64,000 bases of DNA from a virus: positions 1 through 64,000 of IMG/VR virus record IMGVR_UViG_3300031999_000005; one strand, written 5' to 3'. Made by a program: the position numbers and the translations under genes. The notes under the pieces were generated by a model. It searched no databases and was not told the DNA's origin. It saw only the letters and a list, made by a program, of their open reading frames with translations. Below are positions 2,163-28,263 of the stretch, piece by piece; the stretch's first letter is position 1; each line of letters begins with the position of its first letter.

Positions 2163-3192
2163 ACCGGCGAACCTGGAATGCCTGCATTGCCACCGGACGG
2201 ACTTCAAAGATTCGGCCGGCCTGAAGCGCCACATCACCCGTGCACACACGCATCTCAATGTGGAATTGCCAACTCCGGTCGATGACCTACAGAAAAAGCC
2301 GATCATCTACACCTCGTATTCCGGCTTTGAGGTGCGGGATTTCAGCTATTCGATGGCGAACGACATTGCAGAATGCGGCTGGCGCGCACGGGCAAAGCGC
2401 ATCTACGGGTGGACATCTATAAAGGATAAGGCCGCACTGCACTTCGGGGATTGCATTGAAGAGGCTCTCATGTGGCACTTCGATGATGAGCGGCGCATGG
2501 AGATGCCCGCAGCGTTCGAGTTTCTCTGGAAAGAATACAAGGATGCCGACCTGATCTATACAGAGAAGGACGGCAACTGGCAGGAAATGATGGACATGGG
2601 TATGCGGCTCTCCGACCAGTTTGTGTCGGATTTCAAGAGCGGCGAATTCACCCGCGATACTGTGGGATTCGTGAATCCGCGATTCGGGATGGAATTTCCC
2701 AAGCCGAGCGAACCTCACGAGTGGTACAACGGAACGACGCTGCGTTACAAGGCCGACGCTGTGTGTTGCCCAAGCGAACTTGCCGGGTTCGTGCGAACCC
2801 TGGTTGACGTGAAGACCTCGGCATCATCCTACCCAGAGAAAGAAAAGAATGCAGGAATCATCGCGCTGGACCGGCAGCTTCGCGTGGGTGCTCTTGCGAG
2901 TGGTCTCCGCAATGTGGGGTTCCTGGTCTTCGTGAAGAGCAAGAAACCGAAGGTCCAATGGCTGACAGGATTCATAACGGATGAACTGTTGCGGGACATT
3001 GACCTGTGGCTGCGTGAACAGTACCACAAGTGGTTGAACCGCCGATTCCACCGTTCACCCGGCATCCGGTTTCCGCAGGAACAGTGCATGGCCTGTGAAT
3101 TTTTCCCGTTGTGCATCGGCCGACCAGACTTGGCGGGGGGTCTGCGGCAGAAGGAATCGAAGAAGACGGGTTCGCTGAACGTGCTGGATTGA
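2134..3192 (+). CDS. C2H2 zinc finger fused to PD-(D/E)XK nuclease
   Basis: 352 residues. Residues about 16-37 form a classic C2H2 finger (CLHCH...LKRHITRAH). The rest looks like a Cas4/RecB-type PD-(D/E)XK exonuclease: GDCIEEAL, LRYKADAV, LVDVKTSASSY (Asp...Asp-x-Lys) and a helix beginning with a Gln-containing DRQLRVGALASG. A late CMACEFFPLCIG could bind metal or an Fe-S cluster. Likely a DNA-end-processing nuclease in the recombination block, near the single-strand and RecA functions downstream. Start ATG 2134 follows CGGAGAAG. Family-level call is fairly secure; the substrate is inferred. Confidence 0.75.
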   Translation: MSEKKTKVSEPANLECLHCHRTDFKDSAGLKRHITRAHTHLNVELPTPVDDLQKKPIIYTSYSGFEVRDFSYSMANDIAECGWRARAKRIYGWTSIKDKAALHFGDCIEEALMWHFDDERRMEMPAAFEFLWKEYKDADLIYTEKDGNWQEMMDMGMRLSDQFVSDFKSGEFTRDTVGFVNPRFGMEFPKPSEPHEWYNGTTLRYKADAVCCPSELAGFVRTLVDVKTSASSYPEKEKNAGIIALDRQLRVGALASGLRNVGFLVFVKSKKPKVQWLTGFITDELLRDIDLWLREQYHKWLNRRFHRSPGIRFPQEQCMACEFFPLCIGRPDLAGGLRQKESKKTGSLNVLD

Positions 3193-20228: not shown

Positions 20229-20360
20229 GTGACCACTCCGTCGCTTTTAGGCGACGGCTTCTCGGGTTACGCATGAGCTTACTGCCTCTACGTTAGCGCC
20301 CGAAAGCCTGATCCAGGCTCGTTGCAAAATGACCATGGCGGACGCATGATCGCGTCCCAA
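20229..20360 (-). ncRNA. putative TnpB omega-RNA / element right end
   Basis: At the end of tnpB the minus strand has a stable hairpin GCCGTCGC ctaaaa GCGACGG followed by AGTGGTCAC, ending about 20229. This arrangement is the usual right end and guide junction of IS200/IS605 TnpB loci. The guide would be the next bases, starting GTGCCGATGGAGTTTC, the start of the adjacent membrane gene. The 5' boundary is approximate. Confidence 0.5.
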
Positions 20361-21386
20361 AGACAACCCGCAAGAGGGGCAGTGGTGCCAGCGGTCCTTC
20401 AACCGCTTTGGCACATTCGCACCGCACACGCACACTTGGCTCGTTCCCCGTGGGTCCACCTTCACAAAACACCTATCAGCATCCTCCGCTTTATAAGCGA
20501 TTTTGCTCAGGAATTCAGACCAGCCTGCGTCATTCACGGACTTCGCCAGTCGGCTCGCCGCAAGGCCCTTTACGTTCAAATCTTCAACGGCAATCGTGCC
20601 GTACCCGTTCACAATCCGCCGGGAAACTTTGTGGTGGAAATCCGCCCGCTGATTACGCACATGGGCGTGGGCACGCTGGAGCAGCAGCACCGCTTTGCGG
20701 CGACGGTGGCCACCTTTTTTCCGTCGTGCCACGCGGCGCTGCGCCCGCCGCAACTTGGCTTGCGCTTTGCGATAGCACCGGGGATTCTTGATCTCCGTTC
20801 CATCAGAAAGCGTAGCGAAGGCTGTCAACCCCACATCAATTCCAGCAACGTTGCTGTTCGGCTCAAGTGGTTTAGGGTCTCTCTCCACGGTGAAGCACAC
20901 GAACCACCGCCCCGCCTCTCGTTTAATCGTGGTGGTTTTGATTTTACCTTCTACTGGACGATGCAATTTGATTTTGATTTCGCCTGTCCCTTGGACATAT
21001 AGTTTATCAATCTTGAGGAGTTTACAACCATTGCCGTATATCGGGAATGTGATGCTGTCATAGCGACGGCTGGAGCGATAGCGTGGGAACCCTGGCGTCT
21101 GCCCTCTCTTAATACGATGAAAGAAATCCTTAAAAGCTCTGTCCAACCGCCGCAGTACGTTTTGAGCACAATGGTGATTGGCCAGCCGAAGCAATTCCTC
21201 ATCTCGCATGGGCTTCAATTGCCTTGCTTGATCGTAATAGCTGATCGACTTGCGGCAGGTCTTCCAGGCCCCGATGCGCTCTTGAAGCGCGCAGTTGTAA
21301 AGGTCACAGGCTTCGCGGAGTTGTTCCTCCAGGAAAACTCCTTGCGCTTTGGTCGGGTAGAGCCGGTATTTGAATGCCAGCCGCAT
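20247..21386 (-). CDS. tnpB: TnpB RNA-guided nuclease (IS200/IS605 type)
   Basis: 379 residues from ATG 21386 (MRLAFKYRLYPTKAQ). RuvC residues all present: Asp184 in AGIDVGLTAF, Glu268 in IAVEDLNV, Asp346 in LGRDHASAMV. Zinc finger CVCG ... CPSCG (319-339). No TnpA transposase is nearby, so the element is non-autonomous or acts as a homing nuclease. Its start is 1 nt from the stop of a ribbon-helix-helix gene (TGAGATG), indicating coupling. Cleaves DNA guided by the right-end RNA; target-adjacent motif not determined. Confidence 0.93.
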   Translation of the reverse strand: MRLAFKYRLYPTKAQGVFLEEQLREACDLYNCALQERIGAWKTCRKSISYYDQARQLKPMRDEELLRLANHHCAQNVLRRLDRAFKDFFHRIKRGQTPGFPRYRSSRRYDSITFPIYGNGCKLLKIDKLYVQGTGEIKIKLHRPVEGKIKTTTIKREAGRWFVCFTVERDPKPLEPNSNVAGIDVGLTAFATLSDGTEIKNPRCYRKAQAKLRRAQRRVARRKKGGHRRRKAVLLLQRAHAHVRNQRADFHHKVSRRIVNGYGTIAVEDLNVKGLAASRLAKSVNDAGWSEFLSKIAYKAEDADRCFVKVDPRGTSQVCVCGANVPKRLKDRWHHCPSCGLSLGRDHASAMVILQRAWIRLSGANVEAVSSCVTREAVA

Positions 21387-21387
21387 C

Positions 21388-21528
21388 TCACTCGACCTTG
21401 CGCTTTTTTGCCAGATCACGAATCCCTATTTCCAGGGCGGCGGCTTGGCTTATCCCGAGTTTCGACGCCAGCAACTTCAACAGTCGAAGTGCCTCTGGCG
21501 TCAATCGAAAACCGGCTGCATGTTTCAT
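21388..21528 (-). CDS. ribbon-helix-helix partner of TnpB
   Basis: 46 residues: MKHAAGFRLTPEALRLL ... GISQAAALEIGIRDLAK, the beta-strand plus two helices of a CopG/RHH DNA-binding protein. No Shine-Dalgarno site precedes ATG 21528, and the predicted transcription start lies only a few nt upstream, so the mRNA may be leaderless. Probably represses the element's own promoter. Confidence 0.65.
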   Translation of the reverse strand: MKHAAGFRLTPEALRLLKLLASKLGISQAAALEIGIRDLAKKRKVE

Positions 21529-22536: not shown

Positions 22537-24156
22537 TTAACCTCCGTTCATTGCCTTGATAACGTCCTCACCAAGCTGGCGGCCGTATTTCTTGAGCAGC
22601 TTTCGGCCGAGGGCCGCAGCTTTTGCCGAAAGAGTGGGCGCCGCCGCCAGGGAATGTCCGATCCTCGCGTCCATGCGGTTAAATCCGTGCCCGTCGAGTA
22701 GCCGGGCACCGTCGCACACGCCGGCCAGGGTCCGCAGCGCGGAATGGACGGCTTGGATCTGCGCGGCGGTGATCGTCTCGGCCTCTTTCTCCACCGTGGC
22801 ACGGGAGACATTCCTTGTAGCTGCCTGTTCCTTTGCAGGGGTGATTGGTACGGTGGATTCGATCTTGTCGTCCAGGGCGGCGTCGAAGACCTTTTGTTTT
22901 TCCACCAGCGTCCACGCCATCTTTGCGTCGAGCGAACCGTCCAGCACTAGGTATTGAACCAGCACCGGGTTGACAGTGCCAATCCGGTGACACCGAGCGA
23001 TAGCCTGCGAGATATTGGTCGGCACATAGTCAAGCTCGGCGAAGATTTCGTGGCTGCTGGCCGTTAAGGTGATTCCTATGCCTGATGCCTGGATGGAGCC
23101 GACGAATAGTTTAATCTCGGGATCATTCTGAAAGCGGTGGATCGCCTCGTCCTTCTGTGTCTCGCTGAGGCCGCCGCGATGCAGGACTGCCACGCCGGGG
23201 AACTCGGCTATCAGCGCATTTCCTACATCGTGATGGTGACACCAAAGCACCACCTTCCCCCCCTCCTCCAAGGCATTGCGCACATGCTCGGTAACCAGAG
23301 GCACCTTGCAGACAGCGGTATCATGGCGCAACTTGGCGATCTCGGTAAAGGCGGCGTTCACTCCCTTGGTGAGTTTCGCTATGGCCTTCCGGTAATCCTC
23401 AGGGTCCTCGGATGCTTTCGCCAGTTCGACGGCAACGCGCAGTTCTTCTATGGCCTCTTCATGGCGCTGGTAACCTTCTTCCTCAGCGGCTATGAACCGT
23501 GCCATCTCTGCTGTTGGTGGGATTTCAATTACCTGATGCAGGATGGGCGGTAGTTCACGGAGGACATCTTGCTTCAGTCGGCGGATCATGCAAACTTTTC
23601 TCAGCAGTTCTTGCAACTCAGGAAGATTGCTTGCGCCGGAAAAGTCCCAAACCATTTTGCCGCGTCGGTTCACGACCTTTTGGTGCGCGTTGCAGAATCG
23701 TCGCAGGAATTTCCAGGTGCCGCCGAACTGCTCAATCACTCCAAGAATCTCCAGCGGGAAGGCCAACTCTTGCGGTCTGTTTAGAAAAGGTGTGCCACTA
23801 AGAGCCATGATCCGCTTGCCATTCCCTTCGCAGAGTCCCTTGACGGCTTTCGACCTGGCCGCCTTCGAGGACTTAGCCATGTGGATTTCGTCAATGATGA
23901 TTGTCTGCGGAGCAACCTGTTTGATAGCTGGTAACCATGCGTGCAATATATCGTAGTTACAGATAATGAGGGCCTTCGGTGGCAGCGGCCAGAGTTCCGA
24001 TTGTTTCCGGGTGGAGAGGGGAACTGGAGTGCAATCAGGGATGAGCCTTCGGGCTTCCCGAGCCCAGTTCAACTTCAAACTGGCCGGCGTAATCACGATA
24101 GCAGGCCATTCCTGAGTCACAGCAAGCACGCCAAGCGCCTCCCAAGTTTTACCCAA
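22537..24156 (-). CDS. SNF2-type helicase, C-terminal ORF
   Basis: Reads from TTG 24156 as LGKTWEALGVLA, that is, from inside Walker A. Then TIIIDEIHMAKS (DEAH-like box), RIMALSGTPFLNRP (motif III), LWCHHHDVGNALI, LFVGSIQASGIGITLTAS (motif V) and AIARCHRIGT (motif VI). 539 residues. The N-terminal half of the same helicase, ending in DEMG, lies in the ORF at 24162-25115, in another frame 8 nt away. It is functional only if the two parts are joined, or if it is a relic. Confidence 0.85.
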   Translation of the reverse strand: MGKTWEALGVLAVTQEWPAIVITPASLKLNWAREARRLIPDCTPVPLSTRKQSELWPLPPKALIICNYDILHAWLPAIKQVAPQTIIIDEIHMAKSSKAARSKAVKGLCEGNGKRIMALSGTPFLNRPQELAFPLEILGVIEQFGGTWKFLRRFCNAHQKVVNRRGKMVWDFSGASNLPELQELLRKVCMIRRLKQDVLRELPPILHQVIEIPPTAEMARFIAAEEEGYQRHEEAIEELRVAVELAKASEDPEDYRKAIAKLTKGVNAAFTEIAKLRHDTAVCKVPLVTEHVRNALEEGGKVVLWCHHHDVGNALIAEFPGVAVLHRGGLSETQKDEAIHRFQNDPEIKLFVGSIQASGIGITLTASSHEIFAELDYVPTNISQAIARCHRIGTVNPVLVQYLVLDGSLDAKMAWTLVEKQKVFDAALDDKIESTVPITPAKEQAATRNVSRATVEKEAETITAAQIQAVHSALRTLAGVCDGARLLDGHGFNRMDARIGHSLAAAPTLSAKAAALGRKLLKKYGRQLGEDVIKAMNGG

Positions 24157-24213
24157 GCCGGTCAGCCCATCTCATCGCCGAACAGGACTCCTGTTTTGGC
24201 GTGAGATGGGCTT
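24157..24213 (-). other. frame break at Walker A: possible translational bypass site
   Basis: Minus strand reads GATGAGATGGGC, then TGACC, then GGC, then TTGGGTAAAACT. GGC-stop-gap-GGC would let peptidyl-tRNA-Gly hop 8 nt and restore DEMG-LGKT exactly. A strong inverted repeat (AGCCCATCTCA 24203-24213 region with TGAGATGGGCT, inner AACAGG/CCTGTT) has its 3' arm over the take-off codon. Sequence facts are direct; hopping is a hypothesis. Confidence 0.4.
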
Positions 24214-25115
24214 GCACCTCCTTTCAGTGCTTGAAGCGAATGACTTTCCAACCCAAAGCTTCGAGCACTTCGGTTTTTTTCTGATCTTTCTCCGCTTGCC
24301 ACCGGCACCTGTGGGACGCCCCGTCTAACTCGATCACGATTCTGAGGGACGGATGGGCAAAGTCCGCCTTGTAACTGCGTGGCGGTTGGTGTTCCGTCCC
24401 GTGGCCCTTCGTTCTGATGATGTATTCCTGGATGCAACCAAGAGGTTGGAGCATTCTCGACATTGCTTGAGACATCGGTGTCGGAGGTTGCCCGTTGCCC
24501 CCGCTGAAGTAGCTTGGATTTTTGGCTAAAGCTCGAAGATGTTTCTCTCGCACCTCCGGCCGGTGCATCGCCTTGCGTGTAGCTTCGGAAACCCTCATTC
24601 GCCATTCCGGGTTTGCAGCTATGGTTCTGAGGGCCTGTCTGGCCTTGCGTCTGGCAGCAGGGCCGTGTCCCAAGGCTAGATTCTGGCGGGCTGCTTCCAG
24701 TTGCTCTTTCGTTCTCCGGTATACCCCTGTTGGCATTGACTTCCTCCCTAACCCCATTATGGGTCTTGAGAGAACTGAAATCAAAGCCAAATTTCTCCAA
24801 AGCGTATTTGATAGCGGCTTTCTGGAACCCGAAGTAATTGATGCCGTTCGGTGCCGGGATCTCAATATCGGCATCGGTGGCTCGGCTGGCGGCCATGGAT
24901 TGCTCTCGGGCGTCGGCCGCGCCCTGGAGCACTGCGCGGGTTTCATCGTCGGCGTACTGAATCAGCCGGGAAGCGGTTTCGATGGATTCGGTGTACCAGC
25001 CGCGGCGTTCTCCAAGAAGGCCAGCCGACCACCGAAATCCGGCGGACTTGGGCACCGTGCGTTCGTCATAGGAGCACACGCAGTAGAACCGCTTTCCATC
25101 GGTGATGAGTGTCAA
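24162..25115 (-). CDS. SNF2-type helicase, N-terminal ORF spanning a nested nuclease
   Basis: TTG 25115 overlaps the previous stop (TTGA). Residues 1-112 are the helicase N-terminal region (KRFYCVCSYDERTVPKSAGF, FGFQKAAIKYALEKFG). Next come about 190 codons that are open but encode low-complexity sequence, because a homing nuclease uses another frame there. The last residues KTGVLFGDEMG are again helicase, in the original frame, followed by TGA. So the insertion kept the frame, and only the 8-nt gap at the end breaks it. Confidence 0.65.
   Translation of the reverse strand: MTLITDGKRFYCVCSYDERTVPKSAGFRWSAGLLGERRGWYTESIETASRLIQYADDETRAVLQGAADAREQSMAASRATDADIEIPAPNGINYFGFQKAAIKYALEKFGFDFSSLKTHNGVREEVNANRGIPENERATGSSPPESSLGTRPCCQTQGQTGPQNHSCKPGMANEGFRSYTQGDAPAGGARETSSSFSQKSKLLQRGQRATSDTDVSSNVENAPTSWLHPGIHHQNEGPRDGTPTATQLQGGLCPSVPQNRDRVRRGVPQVPVASGERSEKNRSARSFGLESHSLQALKGGASPSHAKTGVLFGDEMG
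24224..24736 (-). CDS. Vsr/DUF559-like homing endonuclease nested in helicase gene
   Basis: ATG 24736 behind GGAGGAAG. 170 residues: MPTGVYRRTKEQLEAARQN and repeated basic helices (NUMOD-like DNA-binding), then YKADFAHPSLRIVIELDGASH ... KDQKKTEVLEALGWKVIRF, the EDxHD/Vsr-type PD-(D/E)XK core. This class includes phage homing nucleases. It is entirely contained in the helicase N-terminal ORF but read in a different frame. Confidence 0.8.
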   Translation of the reverse strand: MPTGVYRRTKEQLEAARQNLALGHGPAARRKARQALRTIAANPEWRMRVSEATRKAMHRPEVREKHLRALAKNPSYFSGGNGQPPTPMSQAMSRMLQPLGCIQEYIIRTKGHGTEHQPPRSYKADFAHPSLRIVIELDGASHRCRWQAEKDQKKTEVLEALGWKVIRFKH

Positions 25116-25300
25116 GCCGCAACCACCTTTCGTAGCTGTCGAGATCCCCGCGAGTAGAGCCGTGCGCAGTCAGGGCAGATCACCCAGTTGCTTACCGCCA
25201 TGCACCGCGGCAGATCATGGGTCCATGGTTTTCTGCACCGAGGGCAGACATGCGGGTGCGGCACGCTGGTGGATGGTGCCTTCAATCCTTCACCTTCCAT
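25112..25300 (-). CDS. small zinc ribbon protein
   Basis: 62 residues with CPRCRKPW ... CPDCARLY, a four-Cys zinc ribbon, and a basic C-terminus. Overlaps the end of the deformylase gene upstream and the start of the helicase gene downstream. Confidence 0.6.
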   Translation of the reverse strand: MEGEGLKAPSTSVPHPHVCPRCRKPWTHDLPRCMAVSNWVICPDCARLYSRGSRQLRKVVAA

Positions 25301-25785
25301 CTCACGTCATCCCACTTCCGCAGGACCTCTCTCCGCATCTGTCGGCTGAGATGGACAAAGAACATACGCCCATCGAGATGGTCTAGCTCATGGGCCGCTG
25401 TCCGGGCGTCCAGGTCGAGCAGGACGGATTCGTGGGCGACTCCGTAAACGTCCAGGTAGAACATGCGCACCCACCGGGGGCGCTGAACCTGTGCGCGGAT
25501 ACCCGGCAGGGACAGGCAACCCTCTTCCATCAGGGCAGTATCGTGCTCCTTCACTTCCAAGCGTGGATTGCAGACTGCCAAGGGCGCCCCGACCCGCCGC
25601 TCCATGACGAAGACGCACCGAGCAACACCCACTTGCGGGCCGGCCAAGCCGACACCGTGGCGTTCTTGCATCGTGGCGATCATGTCTTCGGCCAACCGAA
25701 TCAGCCAGGGTTTACCAAACGCCGCTTCTGCGACTGGCAGGCAGCGAGCGGTAAGGATTGGATTGGGCCAGAGGATGATTTTCAA
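25282..25785 (-). CDS. def: peptide deformylase
   Basis: TTG 25785 overlaps the previous stop (TTGA), with AAAGGTG upstream. 167 residues with all three motifs: GVGLAGPQVG (44-53), EGCLSLPG (88-95) and HELDH (132-136), the last supplying metal ligands and catalytic Glu. Removes N-formyl groups from nascent proteins. Phage deformylases are known, for example in cyanophages, where they are thought to favour processing of particular proteins. Confidence 0.93.
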   Translation of the reverse strand: MKIILWPNPILTARCLPVAEAAFGKPWLIRLAEDMIATMQERHGVGLAGPQVGVARCVFVMERRVGAPLAVCNPRLEVKEHDTALMEEGCLSLPGIRAQVQRPRWVRMFYLDVYGVAHESVLLDLDARTAAHELDHLDGRMFFVHLSRQMRREVLRKWDDVRWKVKD

Positions 25786-27369: not shown

Positions 27370-28263
27370 TCACTTTTCTAACATTGCGTAGCCCAATTCC
27401 TGCGGCCCAGTTGGGAGCGCAATAACCAAGCCAGCGGCGTAAGCATCGCGGATTCCGACCGTCAGTAGATCAGGAGGATGCTGTATCCATTGCATCAGAC
27501 TGGCGTAGTAGACCGTTAGCGCGGCCCAAGCGTCCCGAGCGTCCCAAGCGTCCCGAGCGTCCCGAGCGGCCCAAGCGGCCCGAGCGGCCTGAGCGGCCCA
27601 AGCGTCCTGAGCGTCCCAAGCGGCCCGAGCGGCCTGAGCGGCCCGAGCGGCCTGAGCGGCCCAAGCGGCCTGAGCGTCCCAAGCGGCCCGAGCGTTCCGA
27701 GCGGCCCAAGCGGCCCGAGCGTTCCGAGCGGCCTGAGCGTCCTGAGCGTCCCAAGCGGCCCGAGCGTTCCAAGCGGCCCCAAATTTCTTCACCGTCCAGT
27801 CAAGGCTGCGAACATTGAGCGCCGTTTTCAGCCCAGCTAGAACCAATACTGGATCACGTTGCGGGCGTGCCAACGCACCCCGCCATGCCATCTGTTCGCG
27901 GCACATGGTTTCGGCGTGTGTGCCGAACGCGGCAGACAGTTCGAGGACTGCGATAGAGACTTCCTCCGCTGTTGCCGCCCGCACCAGTCTTAGAGATGAA
28001 GCCCGGTGCTTATCATCCCGCTGGATCATGTCAGCAGACGGCTCAACCTCGAATGCGGTTGACGGCCATCCATCCGGCCACAACCCGCCGATGCGGAGCG
28101 CCGTTGCGAGATTGTCGGTGAAATTCCACCCGGCGGCGCACTCGGCAGGTCCCACATCGAGCCTGACCACAGGCAATCGATATGGCAGCGTGCCGTTGAA
28201 CAATGGTTCTCCGCCCTGGATAGGCGGACGGTAATCGTGGGTCAAAACCTTCCAGTACATCAC
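27370..28263 (-). CDS. DUF-type protein with pentapeptide Ala repeats
   Basis: 297 residues. First 160 residues look globular (YRPPIQGGEPLFNG, YRLPVVRLDVGPAECAAG). Residues about 165-250 are tandem five-residue units of the AWDAQ/AARAA type, encoded by 15-bp repeats. A short C-terminal domain follows (YYASLMQWIQHPPDLL). Similar proteins with AxDA repeats occur in phages; function unknown. Confidence 0.7.
   Translation of the reverse strand: MMYWKVLTHDYRPPIQGGEPLFNGTLPYRLPVVRLDVGPAECAAGWNFTDNLATALRIGGLWPDGWPSTAFEVEPSADMIQRDDKHRASSLRLVRAATAEEVSIAVLELSAAFGTHAETMCREQMAWRGALARPQRDPVLVLAGLKTALNVRSLDWTVKKFGAAWNARAAWDAQDAQAARNARAAWAARNARAAWDAQAAWAAQAARAAQAARAAWDAQDAWAAQAARAAWAARDARDAWDARDAWAALTVYYASLMQWIQHPPDLLTVGIRDAYAAGLVIALPTGPQELGYAMLEK
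27516..27785 (-). repeat. 15-bp minisatellite
   Basis: About 18 in-frame copies of 15-bp units built from GCGTCCCAAGC/GCGGCCCGAGC. Alternating Trp/Asp and Ala/Arg units are intermixed, suggesting repeated expansion. All six frames stay open, which explains long shadow ORFs here. Confidence 0.9.

Follow-up and report, generated by a model that had tools for sequence, protein, structure and literature searches.

The SNF2-type helicase gene of this phage raises the question of how a helicase can be encoded in two different reading frames, separated by 8 nt within the Walker A motif, with a homing gene nested in its N-terminal ORF. The locus is located on the minus strand of the window, i.e., the 64-kb stretch of DNA that was analyzed, which is part of a 103,756-base IMG/VR virus record. 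The best explanation, which we regard as probable, is that a homing module that can be read in the host frame inserted into the helicase gene, whose frame was later broken by 8 nt.

Anatomy of the locus

The helicase N-terminal frame extended from 25115 to 24162 (−), encoded 317 aa, and was stop-free across the nested gene, ending with VLFGDEMG (GAT GAG ATG GGC TGA; TGA at 24164–24162). The next residues of the helicase, LGKT, began at 24156 (−) in a different frame, which remained stop-free to 22537 (539 aa), encoded SNF2 (E 6.8e-16) and Helicase_C domains according to Pfam, and possibly starts from TTG. Direct reading of the junction gave GGC (24167–24165) TGACC GGC (24159–24157), a shift of 8 nt (TGACCGGC, 24157–24164, −). 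The split SNF2 helicase of the original prediction was thus recovered with all its details: the N-terminal frame open across the homing gene and ending in DEMG and a stop, LGKT 8 nt further on in another frame, and matched GGC codons, the first followed immediately by TGA.

The N-terminal part of the helicase, up to FQKAAIKYALEKFG (Q motif), occupied positions 24787–25115 (−), its motif order matching that of the intact relatives L018 and L023. It was followed by an inserted, in-frame module of 199 codons (about 597 nt; 24190–24786, −), the boundaries of which were inferred from the flanking helicase motifs and are accurate to within a codon. The insert was of 597 nt in L018 (compared with the empty-site allele L023) and of 609 nt in L013. 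A promoter-like block, TTGATT-17-CATAAT (24756–24784, −), at the 5′ end of the module matched the consensus at 9/12 (mean for shuffles, 0.4); TTGATT-17-TATAAT was found at the equivalent place in L013. The Shine–Dalgarno sequence AGGGAGGA (24742–24749, −) preceded the ATG of the homing gene. As consensus matches, these elements are putative start signals belonging to the module itself.

The nested gene (24736–24224, −; 170 aa, in the +1 frame with respect to the helicase) encoded a protein matching Pfam DUF559 (PF04480, 3.8e-11). For its predicted structure (pLDDT 79), the top PDB match was I-Bth0305I (3r3p), although of weak significance (E 7e-3); Vsr itself (1vsr) ranked seventh, also with a weak E-value. 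These weak fold scores agree with the presence of the invariant residues E136, D138, H142, and D151, and the predicted product is a Vsr-like homing endonuclease, as had been proposed from the sequence.

Directly downstream of the homing gene stop, a strong Shine–Dalgarno sequence, AAGGAGGTG (24215–24223, −), was identified. This word occurred three times in the 64 kb, on both strands, and no start codon was found at a normal distance from it. Next came a hairpin (24164–24212, −) with arms at 24189–24212 and 24164–24187; with the settings applied, no inverted repeat of greater length was detected in the 64 kb, and the fold around the hairpin had z = −5.1. In this hairpin, the module tail repeats the Walker A coding sequence imperfectly and in inverted orientation. 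Both the hairpin and the open frame through the homing gene are beyond chance. The hairpin had been predicted to cover the take-off site of a ribosomal hop: it is indeed strong, and the GGC codon in question lies within its 3′ arm, but the structure as a whole is located 5′ of the gap.

The surroundings of the helicase gene included an IS605 OrfB/TnpB-like gene (20247–21419, −) and, upstream, a phage-borne peptide deformylase gene (25282–25785, −). A protein with a long Ala/Trp/Arg/Asp repeat run was encoded at 27370–28263 (−), and the overlapping frames there were also repetitive.

Relatives and the open host frame

The same type of nuclease gene was found in SNF2 helicase genes, in the same +1 phase, in the IMG/VR loci L013–L015 (one lineage, 51% nuclease identity), L018/L019 (42% identity), and L106. 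The window, L013, L018, and L106 formed one clade (support 100/99) of directly nested, intein-free genes. The helicase frame was continuous to the end of the helicase in L013, L014, L018/L019, and L106; L015 stops at a contig end, so its helicase is incomplete. The homing gene of L014 carried a nonsense change (TGG to TGA, position 3138), one of only two differences from L013 in the nested region, with the helicase frame still open. AlphaFold modeling of the fused L018 helicase was poor (mean pLDDT 45.6), the insert being the lowest-confidence part.

The empty-site relative L023 was more than 90% identical to L018 outside the site, whereas the identity dropped to 50–55% between positions of about −22 and +94 relative to the insertion. 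This sharp dip resembles a co-conversion tract, as expected for co-conversion during homing.

We analyzed stop codons in the host frame over 43 representative homing genes. None was found, against 301 expected when synonymous codons were shuffled within each gene, while the third (control) frame of the same genes contained 543 stops against 511 expected. Host-frame openness is not due to amino-acid composition. Of the 75 loci recovered from IMG/VR by a profile scan, 73 had zero host-frame stops over the homing gene, the frame −1 to the nuclease being part of a long host ORF. For single genes, the probability of a stop-free helicase frame was about 0.001–0.007 in the window (ORF 24162–25115, −) and 0.0005 or less in L013. 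Since the openness is maintained according to these codon statistics, the host frame is very probably translated, and the module of about 600 nt looks selected for readability in it. The original prediction had mentioned the open host frame as a side detail; it is the general and unexpected feature here, and a stronger result than the gap.

In most members of the family, the homing gene was located in an intein of a phage DEAD/DEAH helicase, in a frame other than that of the host. Among the host proteins of 54 representatives of nested genes, 48 matched a Pfam intein splicing domain and 50 matched Helicase_C. Homologous genes were matched under helicase-type CDSs in the cultured Pseudomonas phage MR14 and in about 33 Vibrio phages, and in those that were read (MR14, K391, and 1.194) the homing gene lay out of frame within a DEAD/DEAH helicase intein. 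Between the Vibrio phages K391 and 1.194, 12 of the 789 nt of the homing region differed, as against 213 of the 1190 nt of the 3′ part of the helicase; 8 of the 12 changes fell on codon position 3 of the homing gene. This pattern is consistent with recent spread of a functional nuclease and with a host frame whose main constraint is to remain stop-free.

At the position of the nested gene, only the host CDS is annotated in the deposited records of MR14, K391, and 1.194. Vsr-like homing genes out of frame in DEAD/DEAH helicase inteins were present in L029 (MT104474.1), L030 (OZ196571.1), and L036–L107, and small inteins without a homing gene occupied the same helicase site in Vibrio phages K389 (L032) and K459 (L034); Vibrio phage 1.024 had no intein.

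Origin of the 8-nt gap

In the explanation that we prefer, a homing module of about 600 nt with start signals and a Vsr-like endonuclease gene would have invaded a phage SNF2-type helicase gene, needing neither an intron nor an intein. Because the module, of a length divisible by three, contains no stop in the helicase frame, ribosomes can read straight through; the resulting helicase would carry a linker of about 200 residues, and separate translation of the endonuclease would begin at an internal +1-frame start. The anatomy, the lack of host-frame stops throughout the family, the failure to recognize an intron or intein, and the signs of recent spread in relatives were all observed; the long helicase is presumably made and working, and the endonuclease presumably homes, the co-conversion-like tract and the spread bearing only indirectly on cutting of an empty allele.

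In the window lineage, 8 extra nt at Walker A, beside the inverted copy, would later have disrupted the helicase frame. EMG-LGKT was gapless in L013, L018, and L106, the only other SNF2-nested relatives, and in the empty-site L023. A flexible-pattern search of viral contigs for the gap gave nine matches, all of 23 bases, i.e., gapless. Among the sequences seen, the window alone had the gap; it was absent from the relatives in which it was sought, where the frame was intact at this point. The window helicase had no close relative in phages, IMG/VR, or GTDB genomes (best about 36–42%), so the 8-nt state is not directly polarizable in its own lineage.

The inverted Walker A copy, with which the module ends, resembles a scar left by template switching. 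Its continuation, GGGCTTG, is that expected of the ungapped gene and exceeds the present neighbor by two bases, which is too short for proof. Copying of the 8 nt from nearby sequence was rejected, as no 10-mer copy was found elsewhere in the window. A recent frame break by mutation, or an assembly error, is the likeliest account of the gap; most likely it is a local repair or template-switch scar, or such an error, rather than a programmed hop. As the 539 C-terminal codons are stop-free, either the break is recent or the C-terminal fragment is still used. Also counting against this explanation, the strong Shine–Dalgarno sequence past the homing gene stop was present in the window and not in L013 or L018, and it would suit a restarted C-terminal gene.

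Such a restart, bridged by the hairpin, is a real and serious rival, even if our analysis makes a gene in pieces unlikely. Ribosomes would load at AAGGAGGTG and restart at TTG, giving a separate C-terminal helicase (MGKT...) that pairs with the N-terminal piece, comparable to Aeh1 NrdA and T4 gp39/gp60. With the hairpin folded out, the loading site would stand about 11 nt from TTG; T4 gene 25 uses an equivalent arrangement, in which structure cuts the Shine–Dalgarno spacing from 27 to 11 nt (PMC3014915). The rarity of the loading word is in keeping with this reading, as is the choice of a TTG start in 7 of 47 Shine–Dalgarno-scored window ORFs in a crude scan. However, a split within the Walker A loop is a poor site for two-chain reassembly, the module tail resembles a simple inverted copy of the target, and the layout was absent from the relatives. 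We consider it doubtful that a module selected for host-frame readability acquired, in this phage, an 8-nt gap that ribosomes hop, or cross by hairpin-bridged restart, with the split Walker A rejoined or complemented.

A programmed bypass, the main reading of the original prediction, is improbable. Peptidyl-tRNA-Gly would quit GGC 24167–24165, and the ribosome would slide 8 nt past TGA and land on GGC 24159–24157. This restores DEMGLGKT exactly, and the matched Gly codons, the stop immediately 3′ of take-off, and the neighboring homing gene recall T4 gene 60. A 4-nt repeat (GGCT...GGCT) is a common feature of insertion edges, so the matched GGC codons carry little weight. The gene 60 gap is of 50 nt as against 8 nt here, and its bypass relies on a take-off stem-loop and a KKYK nascent-peptide signal (PMC11194080; PMC5009743). 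The gap with its downstream sequence folded at only −3.1 kcal/mol (z +0.87), and no take-off stem-loop was formed from the gap bases. KKYK was absent 25–30 residues upstream of take-off, where FGLESH was found, and from the whole 317-aa ORF. The strong hairpin, being 5′ of the gap, would by its geometry be melted inside the ribosome with GGC in the P site. Conservation was also lacking, since the relatives carrying the nested gene are gapless, an outcome that the original prediction had itself listed as refuting. The evidence does not favor the hop as the main reading.

A −1 frameshift at GGGC-TGA, yielding DEMG-LTG-LGKT and a helicase with three extra P-loop residues, is very improbable: by direct reading the −1 frame does link both ORFs without a stop past ATG GGC, but no classical slippery heptamer was present, the fold of the gap and downstream sequence gave no stimulator, and the three added residues would disturb the phosphate-binding loop. 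Many phage homing genes reside in introns, which speaks for an undetected intron spliced from the RNA; this is hardly credible here, because about 597 nt with a 513-nt gene leave too little room for a ribozyme core, the window gave no Rfam match for an intron, and the family-wide absence of host-frame stops would be left unexplained. A group I or II intron was rejected on the first two grounds. An intein was likewise rejected: the window N-terminal ORF matched neither a Pfam intein splicing domain nor any other Pfam family, in contrast to the 48 of 54 nested relatives with such a domain.

Comparison with known systems

The nearest published precedent that we found is the ShiLan domain (PMC11855218), a case of an HNH homing gene in a methylase. 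There, too, the homing gene lies in an alternate frame of an open host ORF, no intron or intein was detected, and the product of the host frame is regarded as a loop. The window agrees in having an insert stop-free in the host frame, an endonuclease in another frame, and no self-splicing intron or intein; it departs in the continuity of the whole ORF (8-nt break; continuous in L013, L018, and L106) and in the nuclease type. The ShiLan nuclease is HNH with zinc fingers, a GTG start, and no detectable ribosome-binding site, whereas the window gene is Vsr-like/DUF559 with a Shine–Dalgarno sequence and a promoter-like block, lies in an SNF2 helicase, and belongs to a family found far more often out of frame in inteins.

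The window nuclease shares its fold and catalytic residues with I-Bth0305I and Vsr-like (EDxHD) endonucleases. The I-Bth0305I gene resides in a group I intron, while the window gene is nested out of frame and intron-free. A fractured-gene Vsr-like family was reportedly described by Dassa in 2009. In Aeh1 nrdA with mobE, a homing gene also splits an essential-type enzyme gene; that is a gene in pieces, whereas the window relatives retain one continuous reading frame. No paper on out-of-frame Vsr-like genes within inteins or SNF2 helicases was found among the open-licence papers searched.

Since intein-nested examples are available in cultured phages of Vibrio and Pseudomonas, both expression of the hidden endonuclease and function of the long host protein are directly testable. 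Homing genes are usually said to spare the host gene by means of introns, inteins, or intergenic sites. This Vsr-like family appears to use another way: stop-free readability in the host frame.
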